From NCBI RefSeq assembly GCF_030345075.1, contig NZ_CP128361.1:1612001-1676000 (forward strand): a stretch of DNA of 64,000 nucleotides. Reading direction: 5' to 3'. The DNA is from Solwaraspora sp. WMMA2065. GTDB lineage: Bacteria; Actinomycetota; Actinomycetes; Mycobacteriales; Micromonosporaceae. The notes below the pieces were generated by a model. The model was not told the origin of the DNA and ran no database searches. It saw only the letters and a list, made by a program, of their open reading frames with translations. The position numbers and the translations under genes are program-made. Positions 29,902-42,171 of the stretch are shown here, in pieces (the stretch's first letter is position 1; every line of letters starts with the position of its first letter).

Positions 29902-31701
29902 TTAAACGGGATCTTCAGTAAGGTCAACCGTCGAGGTTGGACCGCCGGTCCAGCTGTCCCACAGCCGCCGGTAGTCGCCGTCGGCGGCGATCAACTCGTC
30001 GTGCGTACCCGAGGCCACGACCCGGCCGGCGTCGAGCACCACGATCCGATCGGCCCGCCGGGCCTGGGTGAGCCGGTGCGCGACGATCAGAGTCGTCCGG
30101 CCGGCGGTCGCGGCGAACGCGGCCCGTTCCAGGTCCCGCGCCCCGGCGCTGCCCGCCTCAGCCGTCGCCTCGTCGAGGATCGCCACGTCCGGATCGGCCA
30201 GCACCAGCCGGGCCAGGGCGAGCTGCTGCGCCTGGGCGGCGGTCGGCTGGTGACCGCCCTCACCGACTACGCTGTCGATGCCGTCCGGCAATGCCCGGAC
30301 CCAGCCGAGCGCGCCGACCGTGGCCAGCGCATCGGTGATCTCGTCGGTGGTGGCGTCTGCGCGGGCCAGCCGCAGATCCTCGGCCAGTGGGCCGGCGAAC
30401 ACGTGCACGTCCTGGCTGACCAGCGCGATCCTGCCGGCGAGCCCCGGGTGACCGGCACGGTCCGGCCCGGCGACCGGCACCCCGCCGAGCCGGACCGTGC
30501 CCGCGATCGGCCGGAGCAGGCCGGCGACCACGCCGGCCAGGGTGCTCTTGCCCGCGCCGCTGGCCCCGACCAGCGCCACCCGTTGCCCCGGCTCGACACG
30601 CAGGGTCACGTCGCGCAGCACCAGCGGGCCGTCCTCGTACCGGTGGCTGACGTCGTCGATCTCGATCCCGGTGTCGGCTGGCACGACCGGCCCGGTCGCG
30701 GCCGGCGTCGGGGGCAGGTCGGCCACCCCCACCAGTCGCGCCAGGCTGGCCCCGGCCTGCTGGACCTGGTCGAACTCGGCGACCAGTGCGCCGAGGGGAT
30801 TGAACAGCCGGTGAAAGTACAGCGCAGCGGCCGTGGTAGCCCCGACCGTCACCAGGTCCGCCCGCACCAGCAGGAAGCCGACCACCAGGACCGAGGTCAG
30901 GCCGACACACTCGGCCCGGTTGAGCCGGGAGCCGAACCGGGTGAACATCCGCAGCACGGACACCGACAGGTCGCGCGACGCCGCCGAACGCTGCTCGATC
31001 TCGGCGAGATGCGCCGCCTCCAGCCGGTACGCGCGGACCGTCGCCGCGCCGCGCAACGCGCCGATCATCGCCTGGGACCGTTCCCCGGTGACGACCCGTT
31101 CCCGGGCGTAGTACGGTCCCGAGCGGGGCAGATACCAGCGCAGCGCCAGCAGGTACATCGGCACCGCGGTCAGCCCGGCCAGGCCGAGTCGCCAGTCCAG
31201 CGCGAACAGTCCGGCGACGGTGAGCCCGACGGTCAGCAGCGCGGACACCAGTACCGGCGCGGTGTCGGTGATCACCCGGGTCACCACCGACACGTCGTCA
31301 CCGACCCGGGCCAGCAGGTCGCCGGTGCCGGTGCGGTCCAGCGTCTGACCGGGCAGGTGCAGAGCGCGGTCGAGCACCCGTTCGCGCAGCCGGGCGAGCA
31401 CGGTCTCGCCGGTCCGGGCGACCAGCGCGGCACCGATGCCGGTCAGTACGGCGCCGACGGTGGCCGCGAGCACGATCAGCACCACCGAACGGACCACCTC
31501 GCCGGTGCCGACGCCGGCTCGGATGTCGTCGACCATGACACCGAGCGCCCAGGGTGCGACCAGCCCACTGGCGCTGGCCGCCAGGACGGTCACCAGCGCG
31601 GATCCACTCAGCACACCGGCGCGGCGCAGCTGCCCGCCGAGCACCAGCCAGGTCCGCGCGCCGGTGGCGGTCGGCAGCCGGTCGCGGGCAGGACCGGTCA
31701 T
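29902..31701 (-). CDS. ABC half-exporter with intact Walker motifs but degenerate signature
   Basis: A 599-residue type IV ABC protein with six membrane helices (30-300) and an ATPase domain. Walker A GASGAGKS is at 379-386, Walker B ILDE at 508-511, and the H-loop in 'IVAHRL' is present. The LSGGQ position reads QPTAAQ, so its own signature is broken. It is coupled by ATGA to the upstream half-exporter, which has the opposite defects. The pair should form one competent and one dead ATP site. Confidence 0.88.
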
Positions 31702-33440
31702 CGCAGCACCGCCGCGCGGTAGGTCGGGTCAGTCCGGACGAGATCGTGGTGCGGTGCGACGCCCACCACCCGACCTGCGGCCAGGACGCAGACCCGGTCG
31801 GCCCTGCTGAGCAACGCCGGGCTGCTGGTCACCACCAGGGTGGCCGGTGCTCCGGGCTCGACTGCCGGGTTCACCGTACGGCTGTGGCGGGCCGCCCGCA
31901 GACCGGCCGCCAGTCGTTCCTCGGTTGTCGCGTCGACCGCCGTCGTCGGATCGTGCAGCACCAGGATCGGCGGGTCCGCGGCCAGCGCCCGGGCCAGCCC
32001 GATCCGCTGTCGCTGGCCACCGGAGAGGCTGGCGCCCCGGTCGGTGACCGGATGGTCGAGTCCGGCGGGATGCGCCGCGACGATGTCGTCCGCGCAGGCG
32101 GCACCGACCGCCGCCGGCAACGGATCCGCGGTCTGACCGGGTCGGATCAGCAGGTTGCTGCGCAGCGTGCCGGCGAACAGCGCCGTGTCGTGCGGTTCGA
32201 CCAGGACCCGTTCGCGCAGGCCGTCGAGGGTCAGTTCGGCGACCGGTACGCCGTCCACCGCCACCGTCCCCCGATGGTCGTCGGCGGCGACGGCGCCGCG
32301 CAGCAGGTCGAGCAGCGCTTGGGCGTCGCGCGGCTCGTACGCCACCACTGCGAGCAGCTCTCCCGCCGCCAGCCGCAGGTCGACGTCGCGCAGTGAGCGG
32401 TGGCTGACCCTGGTCAGTGCCAGGCGCACCGGCTGCGGCCGGGCCACCGGACGCTGGCCGGGCAGCACGGCGGGTGGCGCGGCGAGCACCCGGGCGACCC
32501 GTTCGGCCGAGGCCCGCGCGGCGGCGGCGAGCTGGCCACAGAAGCCGAGTACACGGACCGGCTCGGCGATGAACTGAGCCAGACCAACCACGGTGATGAA
32601 CTCACCGACGCCGATCCGGCCCCGGACCGCCATCGCGCCGGCCGCGCCCGCGACGCCGGCCAGGAGCAGCCCGCTGGCACCGGCGGTGATCCCCTGGTAG
32701 ACGCCGGCCATGGTGGTCGCCCGCAGGGTCACCTGGAGGGTGTGCCGGCTCGACTCGCGGTAGCGCCGGGCCGCGTTGCGCTGCGCGCCGAATCCGCGCA
32801 GCGCACCCAGCCCGTTGACCAGGTCGGTGGCGAGCGCGGTGGTCGCCCCGGCGGCGGCCTGCTGCGCGCCGGTACGCCGGGTGACCACTGGGGCGAGCGC
32901 CTGCAGGGCCAGCACCAGCGCCGGCACGCCGAGCAGGACACCAAGGCCGAGCGGCACGTCGATGGTGAGCAGGACCACGGACGAGACCGCCAGCGCCGCC
33001 ACGGCGGCGACGGCGACCGTGGCGGCCCGGATGATCAACGCGGTCCGTTCGGCGTCGGCGGCGGCGATGGCGAGCAGCTCGCCGGAGCGAAGCCCGGTGC
33101 GGTGCCCGCGTGGGTCGAGTGCGCGCCCGGCGACCTCCACCCGGAGCCGGTGGGTCTCCCGGTGGATCGCGGTCTCGGTCAGCCGGGCACCGAACCGCCA
33201 GGCGAAGGTAAGGACGGTGAACAGAGCGGCCAGTCCGGCCACCGAGACCGCGAGCGCTGTCCAGTCGCCGGTCGCGACGGCCTGCTCGACGATCAGTCCG
33301 ATGGCCAGCGGTACCGCCGCTTCGGCCGCCTGGTGCAGGCTGAGCAGTACGACACCGGCGGTGAGCCGGCCGCGGTGCCGGCGCAGGGTGCGCCGCAGCA
33401 GCCGGGCCGTGGTCAGCGGGGCGGGTCGGGGTACGGGCAC
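31698..33440 (-). CDS. ABC half-exporter with intact LSGGQ but degenerate Walker A/B
   Basis: A 580-residue partner of the downstream ABC gene. It has six membrane helices and a normal '[15 protein letters not shown]' signature. The Walker A loop is replaced by 'VAYEPRDA' with no Lys, Walker B reads 'LVLHDP' instead of LDE, and the H-loop His is a Ser in 'VTSSP'. GTG 33440 is preceded by ggagag; GTG 33482 is an alternative that lies nearer the iron-box-like site. Heterodimers such as IrtAB or YbtPQ handle siderophores; the substrate here is unproven. Confidence 0.86.
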
Positions 33441-33496
33441 GGCAGGTCTCTCTCCGGCGGGGTCGGTGACGGTCCGGCTCACCGACCGGCTACCGG

Positions 33497-33515: not shown

Positions 33516-33602
33516 GCCGCGACCGGGCTCCATCGTCGATCACCGGCACCGGACATGACAGTCGCCACGTTGGGGTGACATCCGGTCCACCATGAGATAG
33601 GT

Positions 33603-33617
33603 TATTCTCAGATTGAG
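33603..33617 (+). promoter_or_regulatory. putative -10 element and short dyad upstream of the NrtR-like gene
   Basis: TATTCT (33603-33608) is a fair -10 box in an AT-rich island. It overlaps the dyad CTCA-GAT-TGAG (33607-33617), which would fall near the transcription start 43 bp before ATG 33660. An autoregulatory site is possible; the dyad is short, so this is tentative. Confidence 0.35.
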
Positions 33618-33659
33618 TTGTTCTTAATCAGAGACTTTCTAGTAACGAGAAGGACCGCG

Positions 33660-34478
33660 ATGTCGGAGGCCGAGTTCCTCGCCAGCTACGACCCCCGGGC
33701 GTTCCCGCCGGTCGCCGTGACCGTCGACGTGGTGGCGCTGACCATCCGCGACGCACAGCTGCACGTGCTGCTCGTGCGGCGGGGCGCGCCGCCACACGAA
33801 GGGGCCTGGGCGCTACCCGGCGGCTTCGTCCAGCCCGACGAGGACCTGCCCACCGCCGCCGCCCGGGAGCTGGCCGAGGAGACCGGGCTGGACACCCGGC
33901 CCGGCCGGGCCGCCGCGATGGACCGGGTGCATCTGGAGCAGCTGGCCAGCTACGGCGCACCCGAGCGGGACCCGCGGATGCGGGTGGTCTCCGTGGCGTA
34001 CCTCGCCTTCGCGCCCGAGCTGCCCGACCCGGCGGCCGGCAGCGACGCCGCCGCAGCGGCCTGGGTGCCGGTGGACGCGCTCGGCCTACCCGAACGGGCC
34101 GACCCGGACCGGCCGGTGCGGCAACTGCCCGGCACCAGCCGGCGACTCGCCTTCGACCACGCCCGGATCGTCGTCGACGGCCTGGACCGGGCCCGCGCCA
34201 AGCTCGAGTACACCCCACTGGCCACCCGGTTCGTCGGCGACGAGTTCACCGTCAGCGAGCTGCGCAGCGTCTACCAGACCGTCTGGGGTGTCGAACTGCA
34301 CGCCGGCAACTTCCACCGCAAGGTGCTCTCCGTACCCGGCTTCCTGGAAAGCGTCGGCGCCACCACCGAACGCGGCGGCCCACGCGGCGGACCCCGGTCG
34401 CGCATCTACCGGGCCGGCGACGCCCGGCTGCTGCACCCGGCGCTGCTGCGACCCGCCCGGGAGGATGAGGTCAGGTGA
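33660..34478 (+). CDS. NrtR-type Nudix/winged-helix regulator
   Basis: A 272-residue protein. Its Nudix domain carries a complete box: Gly55-x5-Glu61-x7-Arg69-Glu70-x2-Glu73-Glu74-x-Gly76. A C-terminal winged helix (about 190-260) has the NrtR-like 'FTVSELRSVYQTVWG' and 'NFHRKVLSVPGFL'. NrtR proteins bind ADP-ribose and repress NAD-related genes; many have lost Nudix catalysis, but this box looks intact. ATG 33660 follows gaagga. The stop overlaps the next gene as GTGA. It probably regulates the three genes behind it. Confidence 0.87.
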   Translation: MSEAEFLASYDPRAFPPVAVTVDVVALTIRDAQLHVLLVRRGAPPHEGAWALPGGFVQPDEDLPTAAARELAEETGLDTRPGRAAAMDRVHLEQLASYGAPERDPRMRVVSVAYLAFAPELPDPAAGSDAAAAAWVPVDALGLPERADPDRPVRQLPGTSRRLAFDHARIVVDGLDRARAKLEYTPLATRFVGDEFTVSELRSVYQTVWGVELHAGNFHRKVLSVPGFLESVGATTERGGPRGGPRSRIYRAGDARLLHPALLRPAREDEVR

Positions 34479-35485
34479 CCGTGACCGAGGCGATCGAACT
34501 CGTCCTGACCGCGCACCACCCGGCCGAGGTGTTCGGCACCGACCAGACGACCGGGCGCTACCACCAGCTGGCCCGGCTGCTGCACCCGGACACCGCCGGG
34601 GCGGCCACACCCGACCCGCGCGCCACCGCCGCGTTCATGCAGCTGACCGAGCTGTGGCGGGAGCACCTCGCCGACGGCCGGGACACCGTCACCATCGACA
34701 CCGGCCGGCACCGGTACGTCGTGGACCGGACCGCCCGCTACACCGGCGACCTCGCCGACCTGTACCGGCACGGCGACGACCAACTGGTGAAGGTGCCCCG
34801 GGATCCGGCCAACAACGATCTGATCGCCCGGGAGGCGACCGCGCTGACCCGGCTCGCCGAGCAGGGCGACCCCCGCTACCTGCCGTACGTGCCCCGGGTG
34901 GCGGACGAGTTCCGGCACCGCGACACCGGCACCGGCGCCGTCCGGCAGGTCACCGTGCTGGGCACCGCCGCCGGGCTACGCAGCCTCGCCGAGGTACGCC
35001 GGGCGTACCCGGACGGGGTCGACGCCCGGGACGCGGCCTGGATGTGGCGGCGGCTGCTGGTCGCGCTCGGCTTCGCCCACCGCGCCGGGCTGGTCCACGG
35101 CGCGGTGCTGCCCGACCACGTCCTCATCGAGCCCGACCAGCACGGCGTGGTGCTGGTCGACTGGTGCTACGCCAGCATCGACGCCACGCCGGTGCCGGCG
35201 CTGGTCCCGGCGTACGCCGACTGGTACCCCGACGAGATCCGCCGACGCCGCAGTCCCGGGCCCGGCACCGACCTCGCGATGGCCGCCCGCTGCCTCGACT
35301 GGCTGACCGGCGGTCAGGCACCGGAACCGATGCGCCGGTTCACCGGCAGCTGCCAACTGGCATCGCTGCGGCAGCGGCCCGACGACGCGTGGCGGCTGCT
35401 CGCCGAATTCGACGACCTGCTCGAACGGCTCTGGGGCCGCCGCCGGTTCCGGCCGTTCACCATCCCCGACCGCAATCACCGTTAA
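34475..35485 (+). CDS. J-domain/protein-pseudokinase fusion
   Basis: A 336-residue protein. The first 65 residues look like a J-domain: 'YHQLARLLHPDTAG' contains the diagnostic HPD at 37-39, followed by 'FMQLTELWREHL'. From about residue 70 a kinase-like fold follows, with 'LVKVPRD' for the ATP-anchoring Lys and 'HGAVLPDHVLI' where HRDxKxxN is expected. The catalytic Asp is therefore replaced; 'VDWCYA' stands for DFG. It is probably a pseudokinase linked to Hsp70 recruitment. Coupled to the NrtR-like gene by GTGA with gggaggatgagg upstream. Confidence 0.7.
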   Translation: MTVTEAIELVLTAHHPAEVFGTDQTTGRYHQLARLLHPDTAGAATPDPRATAAFMQLTELWREHLADGRDTVTIDTGRHRYVVDRTARYTGDLADLYRHGDDQLVKVPRDPANNDLIAREATALTRLAEQGDPRYLPYVPRVADEFRHRDTGTGAVRQVTVLGTAAGLRSLAEVRRAYPDGVDARDAAWMWRRLLVALGFAHRAGLVHGAVLPDHVLIEPDQHGVVLVDWCYASIDATPVPALVPAYADWYPDEIRRRRSPGPGTDLAMAARCLDWLTGGQAPEPMRRFTGSCQLASLRQRPDDAWRLLAEFDDLLERLWGRRRFRPFTIPDRNHR

Positions 35486-35513
35486 GAATCACCCGCTTCG
35501 AAGGAGGCCGGAC

Positions 35514-36482
35514 ATGGGCAGTGGAGCCTGGTCGACCGACGTGTACCGCGCCGCGAGCGCCTACCGCAAGGCCACCGGCGCCAGCGCGTTCGCCTACAGC
35601 GACGGCGGCGCCCGCACCGTCCACCCGACCCTCGACCCGCGCGGCGTCACCGCCCGGGAAAGCCGCGACTCGGCCGAACACCCGCAGTCGCTGGCCGTCG
35701 CCGTCCTGTTCGACGTCACCGGATCGATGGGCGGCGTGCCCCGGACGCTGCAGCAGAAGCTGCCGCAGCTGCTCGGCCTGCTGCTGCGCAAGGGCTACGT
35801 CACCGACCCGCAGATCCTGTTCGGTGCGATCGGCGACGCGACCTGCGACCGGGTGCCGCTGCAGATCGGCCAGTTCGAGTCGGACAACCGGATGGACGAC
35901 CACCTGGGCAACATCGTGCTCGAAGGCGGTGGCGGCGGGCAGATGATGGAGTCGTACGAGCTCGCCATGTACTTCATGGCCCGGCACACGTCGATCGACT
36001 GCCACGAGCGGCGCGGCAAGCGCGGCTACCTGTTCGTCATCGGCGACGAGATGGCGTACCCCAAGGTCAAGGCCCGCGAGGTTCGGAAGTTCATCGGGGA
36101 CGACCTGAACGAAGACGTCCCGCAAAGCGCCGTCGTCGACGAGGTCCGTCGCCGGTGGGACACCTACTACCTGATGCCGGCCGGCAGCCACTACGCCGGC
36201 AACCGCCGCATCCTCGACTTCTGGCGGGACCTGCTCGGGCAGAACGCCGTCGAACTCGACGACCTCGACGCGGTCTGCGAGACCATCGCCACCACCGTGG
36301 CACTCGGCGAAGAGGCCTGCGACCTCGACACCGCCCTGGCCGACCTGCGCGACGTCGGTGCCGGCGACGCCGCCACCACCGTGTCGCGGGCGCTCGCCCG
36401 CATCGGCAGCAGCCGCACCCCCGCGGTACGCGGCACCCTGCCGGCCGCCTCGGGCCACGCCGACCGGGTGACCCGGCTGTGA
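35514..36482 (+). CDS. von Willebrand A-domain protein with MIDAS motif
   Basis: A 322-residue soluble protein. The MIDAS metal site is Asp67-x-Thr69-Gly-Ser71 in 'VLFDVTGSMGG', with further candidate ligands at Asp108 ('IGDATCDRVP') and Asp178 ('VIGDEMAYPKV'). There is no signal peptide or membrane segment, so it acts in the cytoplasm, probably as a scaffold. Strong aaggagg at 35501-35507 before ATG 35514. Its stop overlaps the PurA-like start as GTGA. No MoxR AAA+ partner is adjacent, unlike many vWA operons. Confidence 0.82.
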   Translation: MGSGAWSTDVYRAASAYRKATGASAFAYSDGGARTVHPTLDPRGVTARESRDSAEHPQSLAVAVLFDVTGSMGGVPRTLQQKLPQLLGLLLRKGYVTDPQILFGAIGDATCDRVPLQIGQFESDNRMDDHLGNIVLEGGGGGQMMESYELAMYFMARHTSIDCHERRGKRGYLFVIGDEMAYPKVKAREVRKFIGDDLNEDVPQSAVVDEVRRRWDTYYLMPAGSHYAGNRRILDFWRDLLGQNAVELDDLDAVCETIATTVALGEEACDLDTALADLRDVGAGDAATTVSRALARIGSSRTPAVRGTLPAASGHADRVTRL

Positions 36483-37774
36483 ACCCGGTGACCAGCAGCA
36501 TGACCGGGGACCCGACCGGCCGGCACGTCGCCGTGGTCGACCTCGGCTACGGCGACGCCGGCAAGGGCACCGTCGTCGACTGGCTGTGCGCGAGCCGGCC
36601 GGTCGACGCGGTCATCCGGTTCAACGGGGGCGGGCAGGCCGCACACAACGTCGTCCTGCCCGACGGCCGGGCCCACACCTTCGCCCAGTTCGGCGCCGGC
36701 ACCTTCCACGGCGTACCGACGCACCTGTCCCGGTTCGTGGTCGTCGACCCGCTGGCGTTGGCCGGCGAGGCGACGCACCTGGCCGGGGTCGGGCTGCCCG
36801 ACGCACTGGACCGGGTGACCGTCGACCGGGAGGCGCTGCTGGCCACCCCGTACCACCGGGCCGCGAACCAGGCCCGGGAGATCGCCCGTGGGGCCGACCG
36901 GCACGGCTCCTGCGGGATGGGGGTGGGCGAGAGCATGTCGTACGCTCTCGCCCACCCCGACACCGCGCCCCGGGTCGGCGACTGCCTCGACGAAGGACTG
37001 CTGCGACACCGGTTGACCCTGCTGCGTGACCGGCTCACCGCCGAGTTGGGGCCGCTGGACGCCCCGCCGGTGGCGGACACCGTCACCGCGTTCACCGCGT
37101 TCGCGCGGCGGGTGTCGATCGTCGACCGGTCATGGACGACCCGGCTACTGCGCGCCGGAACCGTCGTCTTCGAAGGCGCTCAGGGGGTGCTGCTCGACGA
37201 GTGGCACGGCTTTCACCCGTCCACCACGTGGAGCACCACGACGTACGGCAACGTCGACGCGCTGCTGGCCGAGGCGGGCATGCCCGGTACGGTGACCCGG
37301 CTCGGGGTGCTGCGAACCCTCACCCCCCGGCACGGGCCGGGCCCGCTGGTCACCGAGGACCCGGCGCTGCGGCCGCCGGAGCGGCACAACGGCACCAACG
37401 CCTGGCAGGGGCGGTTCCGGTTCGGCCACTTCGACGCCGTCGCCCACCGGTACGCGCTCGACGTCACCGGCGGCGTCGACGCCCTCGCGTTGACCCATCT
37501 GGACCTGGTCGGCGCGCACCGGCTACGGCTGTGCGCGGCGTACGACTGGACCGACCGGTTGCCGACCGGCCCGCCCGGTGACCTCGACCGGCAGGCGGCG
37601 CTGACCGCCCGGCTGCTGACCAGCCGACCCCGGTACGCCACCGACCCGGAGCCCGACCCGGACTCCTGGGTGGCGGCGGTCGAGGCGGCGCTCGGCGTAC
37701 CGGTGCGGCTGACCTCGCACGGCCCGACCACCGACGACAAGGCCGCCCGGCTCACTGCGGCGGCAGGAAGGTGA
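36479..37774 (+). CDS. adenylosuccinate synthetase-like (PurA-family) enzyme
   Basis: A 431-residue PurA homologue. The P-loop reads 'GYGDAGKGTVVDWL' against GDEGKGK in PurA, keeping the catalytic Asp. Other matches are 'FNGGGQAAHNVV' (active-site His), 'VFEGAQGVLLDEWHG', 'NAWQGRFRFGHFD' in place of the Arg-rich IMP loop, 'LTHLDLVG' and 'SHGPTTDD'. The GTP site is conserved while the nucleotide-acceptor loops diverge, so a modified substrate is likely. Housekeeping purine genes are absent nearby. It is the last gene of the NrtR/J-kinase/vWA operon. Confidence 0.8.
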   Translation: MNPVTSSMTGDPTGRHVAVVDLGYGDAGKGTVVDWLCASRPVDAVIRFNGGGQAAHNVVLPDGRAHTFAQFGAGTFHGVPTHLSRFVVVDPLALAGEATHLAGVGLPDALDRVTVDREALLATPYHRAANQAREIARGADRHGSCGMGVGESMSYALAHPDTAPRVGDCLDEGLLRHRLTLLRDRLTAELGPLDAPPVADTVTAFTAFARRVSIVDRSWTTRLLRAGTVVFEGAQGVLLDEWHGFHPSTTWSTTTYGNVDALLAEAGMPGTVTRLGVLRTLTPRHGPGPLVTEDPALRPPERHNGTNAWQGRFRFGHFDAVAHRYALDVTGGVDALALTHLDLVGAHRLRLCAAYDWTDRLPTGPPGDLDRQAALTARLLTSRPRYATDPEPDPDSWVAAVEAALGVPVRLTSHGPTTDDKAARLTAAAGR

Positions 37775-38807
37775 CCTCGGTCGGCCCGCCGCCGGTGATC
37801 ACTACCGGCGTGGCGCTGTCGAAGTCGGTGCCGCCATGCCAACTGGTGGTGCCGCCGCAGAGACACTGAATCTTGACCTGCTGCCCCAGGACGACCCGGA
37901 TCCGCACCTTGGAACCGGAGCCGAGTGATCCGACGCCCACCGACTCACCGGTGGTCACGTTGCGCAGCACCACCCGATTGTCCGAGCCCGCCGGCGGGTC
38001 AGGAAAGTTGACGATGGCGGATACGCCACGCTTGACAGTGAAGTCGATGATAGGCGAATTGCCCGGTACAGCGGCCTGGATCAGATCAGCTCGTAGTCGG
38101 TTGCCGCCACCGCCGCTCCACTGGTCTGCATGGCCGGGGATCCGGAACAGCAGCGGCCACTCGTACGGGCCGAGCCAGAGAATGCTGAAACTGCCGTCGG
38201 AAGCGATCCCGGAGGCGTAGGGCTGCCAGCGGTTCTCCGGCTCCGGGGCGACGATCCCGACGGTGCCGCCCTGCCCTGGGGGCGGGATCTCCTCCGGTGC
38301 CGGGAGCTTACCCCGAATCGAGCCACGCCGATCAATGAAGATCGTCGGGGCGGTCTTGGTCTCACCTGGCACCGACGCGGTGATCAAACGAGCCGACTGT
38401 TGTGTCCCGGTGCCACCGGACGGCCCCACCCACTGTGACCCGTACATAGTGCTGGGCGGAACGAACGCGAACAGGTTGTACGACCCGGGCGCCGCCACCG
38501 GCACGTTCACCCGCCCCAGTCCGGTACTCTTCGGCCGGCACCCGTCCGGGAAGCTGAAGGTGCCTCGCGCGGGAACGGCGATGACGCAGACGCCTTTCAT
38601 CGGCAGGCCGGTGTCGCGGGCGTACACCCAGGTTTTGATGTACGCCTCGGTAGACTGTGCGGCGGCGGCACGCGCCGGTGGCCCGCCGACCATGGTGACG
38701 ACGAGGGTTGCGATCACGACCGCCACACCTGTCATCCGGAACCTGGTCACCCTCTGATGGTGCTGGCCATGCACCTCACCAGACGATCCCCTGCTGCTGC
38801 CTGCCAT
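37752..38807 (-). CDS. secreted protein of unknown function, paralogue 1
   Basis: A 351-residue exported protein: signal peptide (hydrophobic residues about 25-45, Ala-rich end), then a beta-rich domain with 'TGLPMKGVCVIAVP', 'GSYNLFAFVPP', 'YGSQWVGPSGGTG', and a middle 'LGPYEWPLLFR'. The C-terminal module has 'GQQVKIQCLCGG' and 'WHGGTDF'. The first part resembles carboxypeptidase-regulatory-like sandwich domains. Two homologues follow. ATG 38807 has agggag. The 3' end overlaps the PurA-like gene by 23 bp. I do not recognise a function. Confidence 0.75.
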   Translation of the reverse strand: MAGSSRGSSGEVHGQHHQRVTRFRMTGVAVVIATLVVTMVGGPPARAAAAQSTEAYIKTWVYARDTGLPMKGVCVIAVPARGTFSFPDGCRPKSTGLGRVNVPVAAPGSYNLFAFVPPSTMYGSQWVGPSGGTGTQQSARLITASVPGETKTAPTIFIDRRGSIRGKLPAPEEIPPPGQGGTVGIVAPEPENRWQPYASGIASDGSFSILWLGPYEWPLLFRIPGHADQWSGGGGNRLRADLIQAAVPGNSPIIDFTVKRGVSAIVNFPDPPAGSDNRVVLRNVTTGESVGVGSLGSGSKVRIRVVLGQQVKIQCLCGGTTSWHGGTDFDSATPVVITGGGPTEVTFLPPQ

Positions 38808-38841
38808 GTCGTCACTCCCTATTCAAGGACGTCTGTCCGCG

Positions 38842-39861
38842 CTACCGCATGTCAAGGTTGATGCCTTCGTAGTAGGCCACGGCAATCGGCGTGGCGCTGG
38901 CAAAGTCGGTCCCGCCGTACCAGCGTGTCCCGTCGGGGCAGTGGCACTCGACCTTGACCTGCTGGCCACCGACGACTCGCGCACGAGCTGCGTTCTTCCC
39001 CCCGTCGAACTCACCTACCCCCATCACGTCCCTGGTAGCGCTGTTGTAGAACACGACCCGCCCCGCCTGGCCAGTCGGCAAGCTGCTGACCTGGACTCCG
39101 AAGGCAGCTCCCCTGAACTGCAGCGTGCGGAACGTGTACCGGTCGGCCGAGCCGCCGACGACCGCGGGAACCGTCTCGGCAAGAAGTCGATTGCCAACCT
39201 GCCCGCTCCACAGTGCCCAGTCGAGCTGCGGCCGGAACAACAACGGCCACTCGTACGGCCCGACCCAGTCGATGTCGAACGTCCCGTCGACGTCAACCGG
39301 CACGGATCGCGGCTCCTGGTGCACGTCGAGCTCCGGCTGCGCGATGGAGATCAGCCCTGCGGGGTCCCCAGCCCAGTGGTCGACCACGCCGCTAATCGTG
39401 GCGCGCGGATCCAGCAGGATCTGTGCGACCCGTTTCGTCTCGCCAGCGGCGAGGGTGACCCGCCGGGCGTCCTGCTGCCTGCCGGTGCCGCCGTCCGGGC
39501 CTACCCACTGGGCACCGTACGGGCTGTCCAGCTTCGGCAGGGCGAACAGGTTGTACTGCCCCGGCCCCGGCACGTCGACGGTCACCCGACCACCACCGCC
39601 GCTGCGGGCCGGGCACGCGTTCGGCAGGCTGAACGTCGGCACCGGCATGGCCAGCACGCAGACGCCCTTGACCGGCTCGCCGGTGGCCCGGTCGAACACC
39701 CGGGTGGTGATGGCGGCACCAACGTCGGCTGGCACCGCCGCCGCGCCGCTGGTCATCACCACTGCCAGCGCTACCCCGGCCGCAACCGACAACAGCCGCC
39801 GAGTGTGGCCGGAGCGGACACCCGACCGGGCATCCGGAAACCACTGCCTACTGCTCGTCAC
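38842..39861 (-). CDS. secreted protein of unknown function, paralogue 2
   Basis: A 339-residue homologue of the neighbouring secreted protein with the same order of motifs: signal peptide, 'TGEPVKGVCVLAMP', 'GQYNLFALPK', 'YGAQWVGPDGGTG', 'VGPYEWPLLFR', 'GQQVKVECHC' and 'WYGGTDF'. Conserved Cys residues suggest disulphides outside the cell. It ends 34 bp upstream of paralogue 1, so the two are probably one transcript. GTG 39861 is a tentative start because no close Shine-Dalgarno sequence is visible. Confidence 0.72.
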   Translation of the reverse strand: MTSSRQWFPDARSGVRSGHTRRLLSVAAGVALAVVMTSGAAAVPADVGAAITTRVFDRATGEPVKGVCVLAMPVPTFSLPNACPARSGGGGRVTVDVPGPGQYNLFALPKLDSPYGAQWVGPDGGTGRQQDARRVTLAAGETKRVAQILLDPRATISGVVDHWAGDPAGLISIAQPELDVHQEPRSVPVDVDGTFDIDWVGPYEWPLLFRPQLDWALWSGQVGNRLLAETVPAVVGGSADRYTFRTLQFRGAAFGVQVSSLPTGQAGRVVFYNSATRDVMGVGEFDGGKNAARARVVGGQQVKVECHCPDGTRWYGGTDFASATPIAVAYYEGINLDMR

Positions 39862-40056
39862 TGCCCACCTGCCAATCCTTCCTGCACGTCGAGTAATCAA
39901 AGGCCTACCACGCGCATGGATGATCGTCGGGGACGTCGAGGGCCCGGACAGCCGGCGTGTCGACGAGTGTCCGTCATCCAGGTGTCGCCGGCCGGTGCGT
40001 GGGTAGGTCCGGAGAGGTCCGACCCTCCGCTCGAACACGACCCAGGGAAACTCACC

Positions 40057-41484
40057 GTGCCGACCGCCTTCCTTCTGCGCCAACAGCCCACCCCCGTCCC
40101 GGCCGGCCGGGGCCAGCTCCGGTGGTACGGGCCCGGCTTGCTGTGGATGGTGTCGTCGGTGGGTTCCGGCTCGGTGCTGTTCACCCCCCGGATCGGCGCG
40201 CGGTACGGCTACGAACTGCTGTGGCTGGCGCTGATCGTGACCGTTCTCATGTGGATCATGATCCGGGAGGCTGGCCGGTACAGCGTGGCCACCGGCCGCA
40301 CCCTGCTCGACGGCTTCCGCGACGTACCGGGGCCGGCCAACTGGGCGATCTGGGTGATCTTCGTGCCGCAGATCGTCGCCGGGGTGGTCACCATCGCCGG
40401 TATCGCCGCCCTGGTCGGCAGTGCGCTCATGGTGGCGCTGCCCGGCGGACAGGCGGTCTACGCCAGCGCCGTCATCCTCGGCTCCGGGGCACTGGTGCTG
40501 GCCGGCCGTTACCGGGGCGTGGAACGGATCACCGCGGTGATGGCCCTGGTCCTGGTCGGCGCGGCCCTCACCGCGGCGGCCAGCACGGTCAGCGGCGACA
40601 TCGCGACGGGCCTGGTGCCGGGCGCGCCGGACGACCTCGACCTGTACTTCGTGCTGCCCTGGGTCGGATTCATCCTGGCCGGCGCCGTCGGCATCATGTG
40701 GTTCTCCTACTGGGTGGCGGCGCGTGGCTTCGGCGGGCCGACAGGCCCGTCCTCGTCGACGGATCAGACTGATGCCGGGGCCCGCGACGATGTGCCTTCG
40801 GACGGGCAGGCCGGCCGCGACGAGCGGATCGAGCGGGTACGCGGCTGGACCCGGACGATGAGCCGGACCGCCGCGCTCGGCGTCGCCGGCGGTGGACTGG
40901 TCATCGTCTCCTTTCTGGTGCTGGGCGCCGAACTGCTCGCCCCGCAGGGGCGGGTACCCGACGGGGTCGACGTCGCCCGCGACCTGACCGCGCTGCTCGG
41001 CGACCTGTGGGGCACCTTCGGTGAGGTGCTGCTGCTGACCTGTGTGGTGGTTGCTCTCTGGGGCACCATCTTCGCCAACCAGGACGGCTGGGCGCGCACG
41101 TACGCTGACGCCACCAGACTGATCACCGCCGGCCGATCCGACGACGAGCCGGCTGATGACGGCGAACATACCGGCAGGCTGGCCCGTCTGATCCGCCACC
41201 CACGGGCGGTCTACCTGACCTATGTCGCGGTCGCCATGACTCTCGCCCCGCTGGTGCTGTTCCTGCTGGTCCGCAACCCGGTCGAGATCCTGTCGGTCGG
41301 CGGTATCATCGCCGCCGCGCACACCCCCGTCGTGGTCGGCCTCACCCTGTACGTCAACCGCCGGCTCCCCGCACCGGTACGGCCGTCGTGGACCAGCCAG
41401 GTGGCGCTCGGCACCGCCGGGTTGTTCTTCGGCGCCTTCGCCGTCGTCTACCTGCTGAGCCTGGTCGGAGTCCGGATCGGTTGA
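40057..41484 (+). CDS. Nramp-like transporter lacking canonical metal-binding motifs
   Basis: A 475-residue protein with about 11 membrane helices and Nramp-like spacing, for example 'GARYGYELLWLALIVTVLMWIMI' in two parts after helix 1. Helix 1 has 'VGSGSVLFTPRIG' where Nramps have DPGN, and helix 6 has 'IMWFSYWVAARG' where MPH is expected. An acidic loop of about 45 residues follows helix 6. It probably moves something other than Mn or Fe. GTG 40057 chosen (aggga upstream). It lies between the second and third secreted paralogues on the opposite strand. Confidence 0.75.
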   Translation: MPTAFLLRQQPTPVPAGRGQLRWYGPGLLWMVSSVGSGSVLFTPRIGARYGYELLWLALIVTVLMWIMIREAGRYSVATGRTLLDGFRDVPGPANWAIWVIFVPQIVAGVVTIAGIAALVGSALMVALPGGQAVYASAVILGSGALVLAGRYRGVERITAVMALVLVGAALTAAASTVSGDIATGLVPGAPDDLDLYFVLPWVGFILAGAVGIMWFSYWVAARGFGGPTGPSSSTDQTDAGARDDVPSDGQAGRDERIERVRGWTRTMSRTAALGVAGGGLVIVSFLVLGAELLAPQGRVPDGVDVARDLTALLGDLWGTFGEVLLLTCVVVALWGTIFANQDGWARTYADATRLITAGRSDDEPADDGEHTGRLARLIRHPRAVYLTYVAVAMTLAPLVLFLLVRNPVEILSVGGIIAAAHTPVVVGLTLYVNRRLPAPVRPSWTSQVALGTAGLFFGAFAVVYLLSLVGVRIG

Positions 41485-41501
41485 CCCGGTCCGGCACCGA
41501 C

Positions 41502-42171
41502 TCACAGGATCAGGTTCAACCAGTCCCGGTGACGGACCCGTACCGAGGCGGCCGTCGCGAAGTCCGAACCGCCGTACCAGCGGTCGCCACCCGTACAGCG
41601 GCACCGGATCTTCACGTGCTGCCCGCCGCTGACCCGCAATAAATCCCCAGGTGGCGTCGTCGCCGATCGCCACCGACCCGACATGCTCGCCGGATCCGGA
41701 GTTGTACAGGACCAGTTGCCGGCCGGCGCTCGTCGGCTCGTCGGCTCGTCGGCTCGTCGAGGATGTGAACGGTCAACTCGCCGCCGTGCCGCAGCCGGTA
41801 GGTCGCCGGGTCCGGGGTGCCGACGACCGCCGGGACGAGGTCGGCCTGGGCACGCCCGGCGACACCGACCACACCGCGGCGGGCCCCGGACTGGACCCGG
41901 GTGCCGCCGTCCGGTCCAACCCACTGCGCGCCGTACGGGCTGCCCGGAGCCGGCAACGCGAAGAGGTGGTAGGAGCCGGCCCTGCTACATCGATGGACAC
42001 CCGGCCGGTACGGCCGCTGTTCGGCCGGCACTGCGCTGGAATGCTGAACACCCTGACCGGGGTCGCGAACACGCATACGCCAGCTACCCGGGCACCAGTG
42101 TTGCGGTCGCGCACCCACGTATCGATCCTGGCGGTCTCGGCACTGGCCGGGGCGGCTGCCGTCATGGACAC
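41502..42171 (-). pseudogene. broken third copy of the secreted paralogue
   Basis: Homology to the two secreted paralogues is spread over three frames. 'IDTWVRDRNTGARVAGVCVFATP' in part appears in one frame, 'GSYHLFALPAPGSPYGAQWVGPDGG' in part in a second, and 'SGGQHVKIRCRC' with 'WYGGSDF' in a third. The signal-peptide core is missing, and the middle GPYEWPLLF segment is deleted. A frame change falls at or close to the octamer repeat at 41728-41759. No product is expected. Confidence 0.82.
41728..41759. repeat. 4 x 8-bp tandem repeat (GCTCGTCG)
   Basis: Four perfect tandem copies of GCTCGTCG occupy 41728-41759, inside the broken paralogue. The unit length is not a multiple of three, so gain or loss of one copy shifts the frame. 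It is the likely slippage site behind one of the frame changes. Confidence 0.92.

Follow-up and report, generated by a model that had tools for sequence, protein, structure and literature searches.

In a 64,000-nucleotide stretch of the Solwaraspora sp. WMMA2065 genome (the window), an operon of four plus-strand genes encodes a Nudix regulator, a J-domain pseudokinase (J-kinase), a vWA protein and a PurA-like enzyme. The last three, here called the triad, recur together in phages. The explanation that we favour, tentatively and with a probability of about 0.4, is that the triad is a module common to phages and bacteria, placed here under its own Nudix repressor, and that it would act as a chaperone-assisted purine-6 ligase with a partner other than aspartate. 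At the level of sequence, the gene order, the co-occurrence of the genes, the existence of a separate PurA, the kept catalytic residues, the rebuilt substrate loops, the lost kinase Asp, the kept HPD motif and the conserved operator are established. The features, in window coordinates, are as follows.

33575..33603, + strand: probable promoter, GTGACA (33575-33580), 17 bp, TAGGTT (33598-33603), read by eye
33601..33651, + strand: probable operator with repeats of the GTTNTTCTCANNNNGAG unit that overlap the -10 element, from a motif match in 27/27 loci with an upstream Nudix gene
33660..34478, + strand: Nudix/winged-helix regulator, NrtR-like, 272 aa, from Pfam and a structure match; ribosome-binding site GAGAAGGA at 33647-33654
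34475..35485, + strand: J-domain (~34475-34675) and pseudokinase (~34685-35482), 336 aa, from motifs and a structure model
35514..36482, + strand: vWA protein, 322 aa, with a DVTGS metal-ion-dependent adhesion site (MIDAS) motif, from a structure model; ribosome-binding site GAAGGAGG at 35500-35507
36479..37774, + strand: PurA-like enzyme, 431 aa, with rebuilt acceptor loops, from Pfam and a residue comparison

GTGA overlaps join genes 1 and 2 (34475-34478) and genes 3 and 4 (36479-36482), and a 28-bp gap precedes the vWA gene start at 35514. The PurA-like gene has two possible starts, GTG at 36479 or ATG at 36500. An earlier reading made from the letters of the window (the sequence-only reading) had described the genes in much these terms. 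The coupling that it reported is present in the window; its NrtR-type regulator with an intact Nudix box was confirmed by Pfam matches and the fit of the box, its HPD-containing J-domain fused to a kinase fold with a replaced HRD Asp by motifs and a model, its MIDAS vWA protein by the DVTGS motif and an integrin I-like fold match, and its PurA homologue with a kept catalytic loop and altered acceptor loops by a comparison of 102 sequences. The interpretation that it placed on the operon as a whole is partly supported.

The PurA-like enzyme

The product of the fourth gene matched the Pfam family Adenylsucc_synt (PF00709) with 193.6 bits (cut-off 27) but did not reach the NCBIfam PurA equivalog thresholds (148 of 402 bits and 113 of 395.55 bits), and the PurZ profile was not reached either (29.9 of 300 bits). 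The sequence-only reading would have been undermined had this been the only PurA of the genome. A profile search of the genome, a single 6.74 Mb contig, found a canonical PurA at C1:4983890-4985140, scoring 596 bits against 193 for the operon copy. This separate PurA, the missed equivalog cut-offs and the replaced aspartate contacts described below rule out a housekeeping PurA.

Asp13 and His41 are catalytic residues of PurA, Lys16 belongs to the nucleoside triphosphate (NTP) site, and Thr301, Arg303 and Arg305 form the aspartate-binding loop. In E. coli numbering, 102 members of the PurA-like family were compared with six canonical PurA and five PurZ/PurZ0 sequences. At least 95% of the 102 retain G12, D13, K16, G17, H41, Q224, T239, R272, R306 and D333, so the likeness to PurA (E. 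coli 1ade, 1cg0) extends beyond the fold to D13, K16, H41, Q224, T239 and D333. D13, H41 and Q224 were also found in 80/80 viral PurA-like sequences, and Asp at position 13 was likewise counted in 66/66 sequences. Other positions have been replaced and then fixed: N38Q in 101, L52F in 101, P56G in 102, I126H in 98 and K267R in 102. Likewise V273 is His in 102 sequences, T301 is Gln in 98 and R303 is deleted in 102. Arg305 has been replaced by F, L, I, M, W or V in 102/102 and is kept in none, whereas canonical PurA has Thr301, Arg303 and Arg305 in 6/6. R131 is mostly hydrophobic and R143, a position at which PurZ aligned poorly, is unconserved. K331, which is Lys in 6/6 canonical sequences, has given way to His in 62 and to Cys in 34 of the 102.

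In a PurZ study, Arg303 of PurA is described as touching both aspartate and ribose, and the PurZ equivalents of D13, V273 and R143 as facing base, ribose and phosphate respectively (PMC8342488). As R303 is deleted, V273 is His and T301 is Gln in the family while the catalytic residues are kept, synthesis of adenylosuccinate or of the phage Z-base is unlikely. We infer from these replacements that activation at purine C6 has probably been kept, that aspartate is probably not the partner and that the sugar-phosphate side is altered; the presence of D13 argues for hypoxanthine over guanine. The near invariance of the new acceptor residues, together with the kept D13, H41 and Q224, suggests that the site is fitted to a particular substrate and is not in decay.

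The sequence-only reading had proposed a tree that included PurZ and housekeeping PurA, and in such a tree the 102 members formed a group apart from PurA and from PurZ/PurZ0. This was a quick FastTree tree, with no archaeal PurA, in which the family branch had a support of 0.867. PurZ is likewise a PurA homologue found in phages, and R303 is absent from both families. Unlike PurZ, however, the present family keeps D13 (Ser in phiVC8 PurZ) and has lost R305 (Arg in 5/5 PurZ). The DatZ family (PF12917) was detected in 1/13 phage records carrying the module or part of it, the control phiVC8 being positive. Known Z-DNA synthesis is therefore not indicated, since D13 is kept, the PurZ profile is unmet and DatZ is so rare, and PurZ was rejected on these grounds together with the loss of R305 and the separate tree group. 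For one phage there is a point against this rejection, as the single DatZ-family match lies in a Rhizobium phage. The idea that the phages have a PurB lyase of their own was also rejected, with Lyase_1 in 0/13 phage records and in 2/2 bacterial genomes. In one locus, L039, the PurA-like match is split over two frames.

Public labels file the family under the PurZ name (PHROG_1211, and products in GenBank), and the module would correct this probable mislabel, in which PHROGs and GenBank give it the name of the Z-base enzyme.

Distribution of the triad

The sequence-only reading had held that rare co-occurrence of the four families would count against it. Genome-contig loci were fetched by similarity to the vWA protein, using exact peptides of the window copy, which returns close relatives only, and 29/29 of these hold all four families. 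They come from Micromonospora, Verrucosispora, Virgisporangium, Dactylosporangium, Paractinoplanes, Frankia, Thermomonospora, Nocardiopsis, Saccharothrix, Umezawaea and others. In 27/29 the Nudix gene lies upstream; the other two (Saccharothrix and Umezawaea) have it downstream, with an identity of about 31%. A fifth constant gene was rejected: no other cluster occurred in more than 13/29 loci, and these were mostly within Micromonospora or Paractinoplanes. The vWA gene was found in 109/200 genomes of the same family, in 30/296 of the class and, phylum-wide, in 4/396, two of which are weak partial matches. Removal of two weak partial matches with none of the families (L031 and L032) left 28 class loci, which when clipped showed PurA in 28, J-kinase in 26 and Nudix in 19. 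Plasmids carry the gene as well, in 21 records that include Rhodococcus, Tsukamurella, Agrobacterium vitis, Acetobacter and Variovorax.

A tblastn search of GenBank with the vWA protein gave 207 phage records (188 Mycobacterium phage, 10 Rhizobium, 6 Vibrio and 3 others), and the three Mycobacterium phage records that were inspected are Bixzunavirus. When ten plasmid and phage loci (L062-L071) were analysed by profile, J-kinase, vWA and PurA were found in that order in seven; in the phages of Rhizobium and Vibrio, vWA and PurA occur with no J-kinase detected. A scan of viral contigs in IMG/VR with the single window vWA protein found nothing, and with the vWA alignment as query it gave 335 stretches encoding a relative. 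In the best 80 of these 335 loci there were 68 with the triad alone, 4 with the triad and a Nudix match, 5 with vWA and PurA and 3 with vWA and J-kinase. Order and strand of the triad agree in 70/72, and 57/62 are complete after removal of close copies; 37 of the best 80 contigs are at least 100 kb long. Approached from the other side, the best 80 viral PurA loci contain vWA in 76 (45 with J-kinase detected and 31 without), and the remaining four comprise one with J-kinase alone and three with neither partner. As all these viral loci were picked by vWA or PurA similarity and the best 80 kept, the figures describe the company of the family and not its frequency in phages; L110 and L156 from IMG/VR resemble the GenBank mycobacteriophages over again.

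The recurrence of the triad in phages indicates that it is the unit and that the Nudix gene was added in bacteria. Nudix genes sought in five phage records gave weak matches of 18-19 bits, in two. As a control element of bacteria the Nudix gene is not fixed in position: it is upstream, downstream or divergent, or is not found. In the tree the copies from actinobacteria cluster with one from a Rhodococcus plasmid and one from a viral contig, and two from alphaproteobacterial plasmids fall elsewhere, so that transfer between phages and bacteria probably happened more than once. A bacteria-only defence operon is ruled out by the triad in phages, and the defence role that the sequence-only reading had suggested is weakened, in its purely bacterial form, because the same triad is common there.

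The genes beside the triad, named from one representative per cluster, include an ATP-grasp R2K enzyme (19), an ATP-dependent DNA ligase (17) and HAD-SAK (15), each in a minority of 84 viral loci; no nucleotide-pool gene was constant beside the triad among these neighbours. R2K enzymes have been proposed as protein modifiers (PMC4431377). In Rhizobium phage L067, phosphoribosyltransferase-like and nicotinamide mononucleotide adenylyltransferase/Nudix genes (L067:3590-5265) lie some kilobases ahead of the vWA and PurA genes, on their upstream side, and are another NAD link.

Partner proteins and Nudix regulator

In the J-domain pseudokinase of the window the HPD motif is present and the HRD position reads HGA. 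The structure model was of high confidence (predicted local distance difference test score, pLDDT, 95.1) and shows helices in the J-domain part; its best matches in the Protein Data Bank (PDB) include PknA, PknB and J-domain/PKA chimeras. Pfam DnaJ scored 16.7 bits in the window copy, under the cut-off of 27.8, and Kdo kinase was likewise under its cut-off; DnaJ scored 54.7 bits, over the cut-off, in homologue L071. Fragments and near copies were excluded before the alignments, those of J-kinase and vWA included. The HRD Asp was found in 1/62 bacterial, plasmid and reference-phage J-kinases (L071) and in 1/75 viral ones, which rules out an active kinase. The H, P and D of the HPD motif were found in 56, 58 and 56 of the 62 and in 70, 71 and 71 of the 75. 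The J-domain has therefore been kept and phosphotransfer has not. The L071 protein (L071:4794-5840, in a 485-kb uncultured phage) has intact HGD and DFG motifs and is possibly near the ancestral active form.

The vWA protein gave no Pfam match. Its model (pLDDT 92.7) had integrin I-like (vWA) domains as best PDB matches in Foldseek, and in 65 sequences D67, T69, D178 and E179 are invariant and S71 nearly so. On motif and model, the vWA protein and the J-pseudokinase are read as probably recruiting or holding a client. In the Bixzunavirus records (L062:6915-8693 and similar) an intein-like insert follows about residue 172 of the vWA protein, just before the invariant GDE; Pfam Hint scored 18.5 bits there, under its cut-off, and one record names an HNH endonuclease at the insert. 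In 5/109 genomes (G745, G691, G731, G671 and G808) the vWA match crosses one in-frame stop.

The regulator matched Pfam NUDIX (79.3 bits) and NrtR_WHD (37.6 bits), both over cut-off, its Nudix box fits GX5EX7REUXEEXGU, and it matches 3gz5 over its whole length; the NCBIfam equivalog for an ADP-ribose-responsive repressor was not reached (109.1 of 400 bits). Upstream of it, GTTNTTCTCANNNNGAG units lie at 33601 (0 mismatches) and 33617 (1 mismatch), with a third, weaker unit by eye. Repeated or inverted units with at most two mismatches were found in the window and in 27/27 loci with the Nudix gene upstream, L060 having a perfect palindrome at the Nudix promoter. Elements of the form TTGNCN-17 bp-TANGTT, like the window promoter, were seen in several homologous upstream regions. 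In its own genome the 24-bp form of the operator occurs, with 0-1 mismatch, at this promoter only, with single sites of 2 and 3 mismatches elsewhere. By eye, other palindromes lie near the J-kinase start in L057, L058 and L066 (Nudix downstream) and in L064 and L065 (divergent), which suggests lineage-specific operators where the Nudix gene is so placed.

The likeness to NrtR thus comprises the Nudix and winged-helix domains, the 3gz5 match and a palindromic site at the regulator's own promoter. According to PMC6800001, Mycobacterium smegmatis NrtR has a degenerate Nudix box and binds a palindrome at its own promoter, from which ADP-ribose releases it; the window protein differs in its intact box and its different operator. 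By analogy, repression of the operon is probably relieved by ADP-ribose or a relative.

Proposed reaction and alternatives

In the proposed mechanism the PurA-like enzyme, in the manner of PurA, would spend GTP or another NTP on activating the oxygen at C6 of a hypoxanthine-type purine. The attacking group would be other than aspartate, and the purine carrier is perhaps not a plain 5'-mononucleotide. The substrate would be a macromolecule, most probably a protein or ribonucleoprotein, held or presented by the J-pseudokinase, which would recruit DnaK, and by the metal-binding vWA protein. In bacteria the operon would be kept silent by the NrtR-like protein until this was displaced by ADP-ribose or a similar product of NAD breakdown, and phages would dispense with this switch. 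A narrower form, distinctly improbable as it stands, is that the triad is a protein-purinylation machine, in which the J-pseudokinase and the vWA protein would offer up client proteins and the PurA-like enzyme would join C6 of a hypoxanthine nucleotide, activated by GTP, to an amine of the client in a stable N6-purine-protein link. If true, protein purinylation would be a new post-translational modification in phages and, under ADP-ribose control, in bacteria.

Several observations weigh against the favoured explanation. No J-kinase was detected in 31/80 viral PurA loci having vWA, in the Rhizobium and Vibrio phages or in bacterial locus L029, so that the J-kinase may be non-essential, or too divergent for detection. 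Conversely, L071 has J-kinase and vWA with no PurA in the 12.7 kb fetched. Specificity for GTP is uncertain, since the Lys331 of 6/6 canonical sequences is His or Cys in 96/102. The chaperone roles of the partners are drawn from fold and motif, and the Nudix protein, its box being intact unlike that of M. smegmatis NrtR, might hydrolyse its ligand.

The strongest alternative, possible though on balance unlikely, is a free-nucleotide pathway, in which an N6-modified purine nucleotide for DNA, RNA or signalling would be made with another amine, as a variation on PurZ, and the partners would serve only in the assembly or protection of the enzyme. The kept catalytic residues agree with this, several of the viral neighbours work on nucleic acids or nucleotides, and PurZ shows that phages can repurpose PurA for modified DNA (PMC8342488). 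However, the DatZ family is in 1/13 phage records, the PurZ profile scored 29.9/300 bits, no nucleotide-pool gene constantly accompanies the triad, and a J-domain and a vWA protein are unexpected partners for an enzyme of free nucleotides.

A J-domain and a vWA protein suit assembly work, and it is conceivable, if rather improbable, that the triad serves large phages in assembly or as a chaperone machine, was later retained by bacteria, and contains in the PurA-like protein a regulator or structural subunit that binds GTP and has no activity as a ligase. The loss of catalysis in the kinase partner and of the known acceptor-side contacts would agree with this, but D13, H41 and Q224 in 80/80 viral sequences and the almost invariant new acceptor residues suggest a selected substrate and not decay.

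Deaminase attack occurs, for example, in RADAR-type defence, and hypoxanthine in RNA or nucleotides might be re-aminated or derivatised after it. Such inosine repair appears very unlikely. The kept D13 fits hypoxanthine over guanine by comparison with PurZ (PMC8342488), and HAD-SAK and ligase genes adjoin a minority of the viral loci, but no deaminase link was seen, and no search was made for one. An ordinary second PurA for purine supply deserves hardly any weight: although the Pfam match is well over the family cut-off, the enzyme falls far under the NCBIfam equivalog cut-offs (148 of 402; 113 of 395.55), its aspartate contacts are replaced and it is tied to two non-metabolic partners.

For the favoured purine-6 ligase module, the closest published idea is that of a vWA protein as a peptide-binding chaperone beside a Nudix-HTH repressor, put forward for other operons (PMC9503650). 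The systems described there, centred on ADP-ribosylglycohydrolase, likewise combine, within an operon, a negative regulator of the Nudix-HTH type with a vWA protein. The present operon has the PurA-like enzyme and the J-pseudokinase instead, its core triad is in phages, and no ADP-ribosylglycohydrolase match was found among the four genes or in the flanks covered (29905-33482 and 37755-41481). The sequence-only reading knew of no described pathway with this gene set, and within open-licence papers that holds: no description of the set or its context was found there, subscription literature being outside the search. Nothing useful on Bxz1 base modification was found in the same papers. A C1 mycobacteriophage announcement, in its available part, gives the gene by name alone (PMC9476963), and Mycobacterium, Bixzunavirus and vWA do not occur in the available part of a 2026 Z-DNA paper (PMC12884076), nor adenylosuccinate or PurA in conflict-system and jumbo-phage surveys (PMC7159879, PMC7824862). 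The gene set appears to be new as a system; each fold in it is already known. An intact activation site, a replaced acceptor site and chaperone-type partners, in phages and bacteria, point to an undiscovered reaction and make the module promising ground in the search for new chemistry, and the bacterial switch, with its Nudix repressor and mapped predicted operator, offers a handle on the trigger.

PADLOC reported weak kinase-fold and Nudix resemblances in the operon. Two adjoining ATP-binding cassette transporter genes (29902-33482, reverse strand) are divergent from it. On the other side, 37752-42171 holds three similar reverse-strand open reading frames of secreted type, of which two were tested and gave no Pfam match and the third is broken over frames. 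Between these frames lies a gene for an Nramp-like transporter (~40027-41484, + strand).

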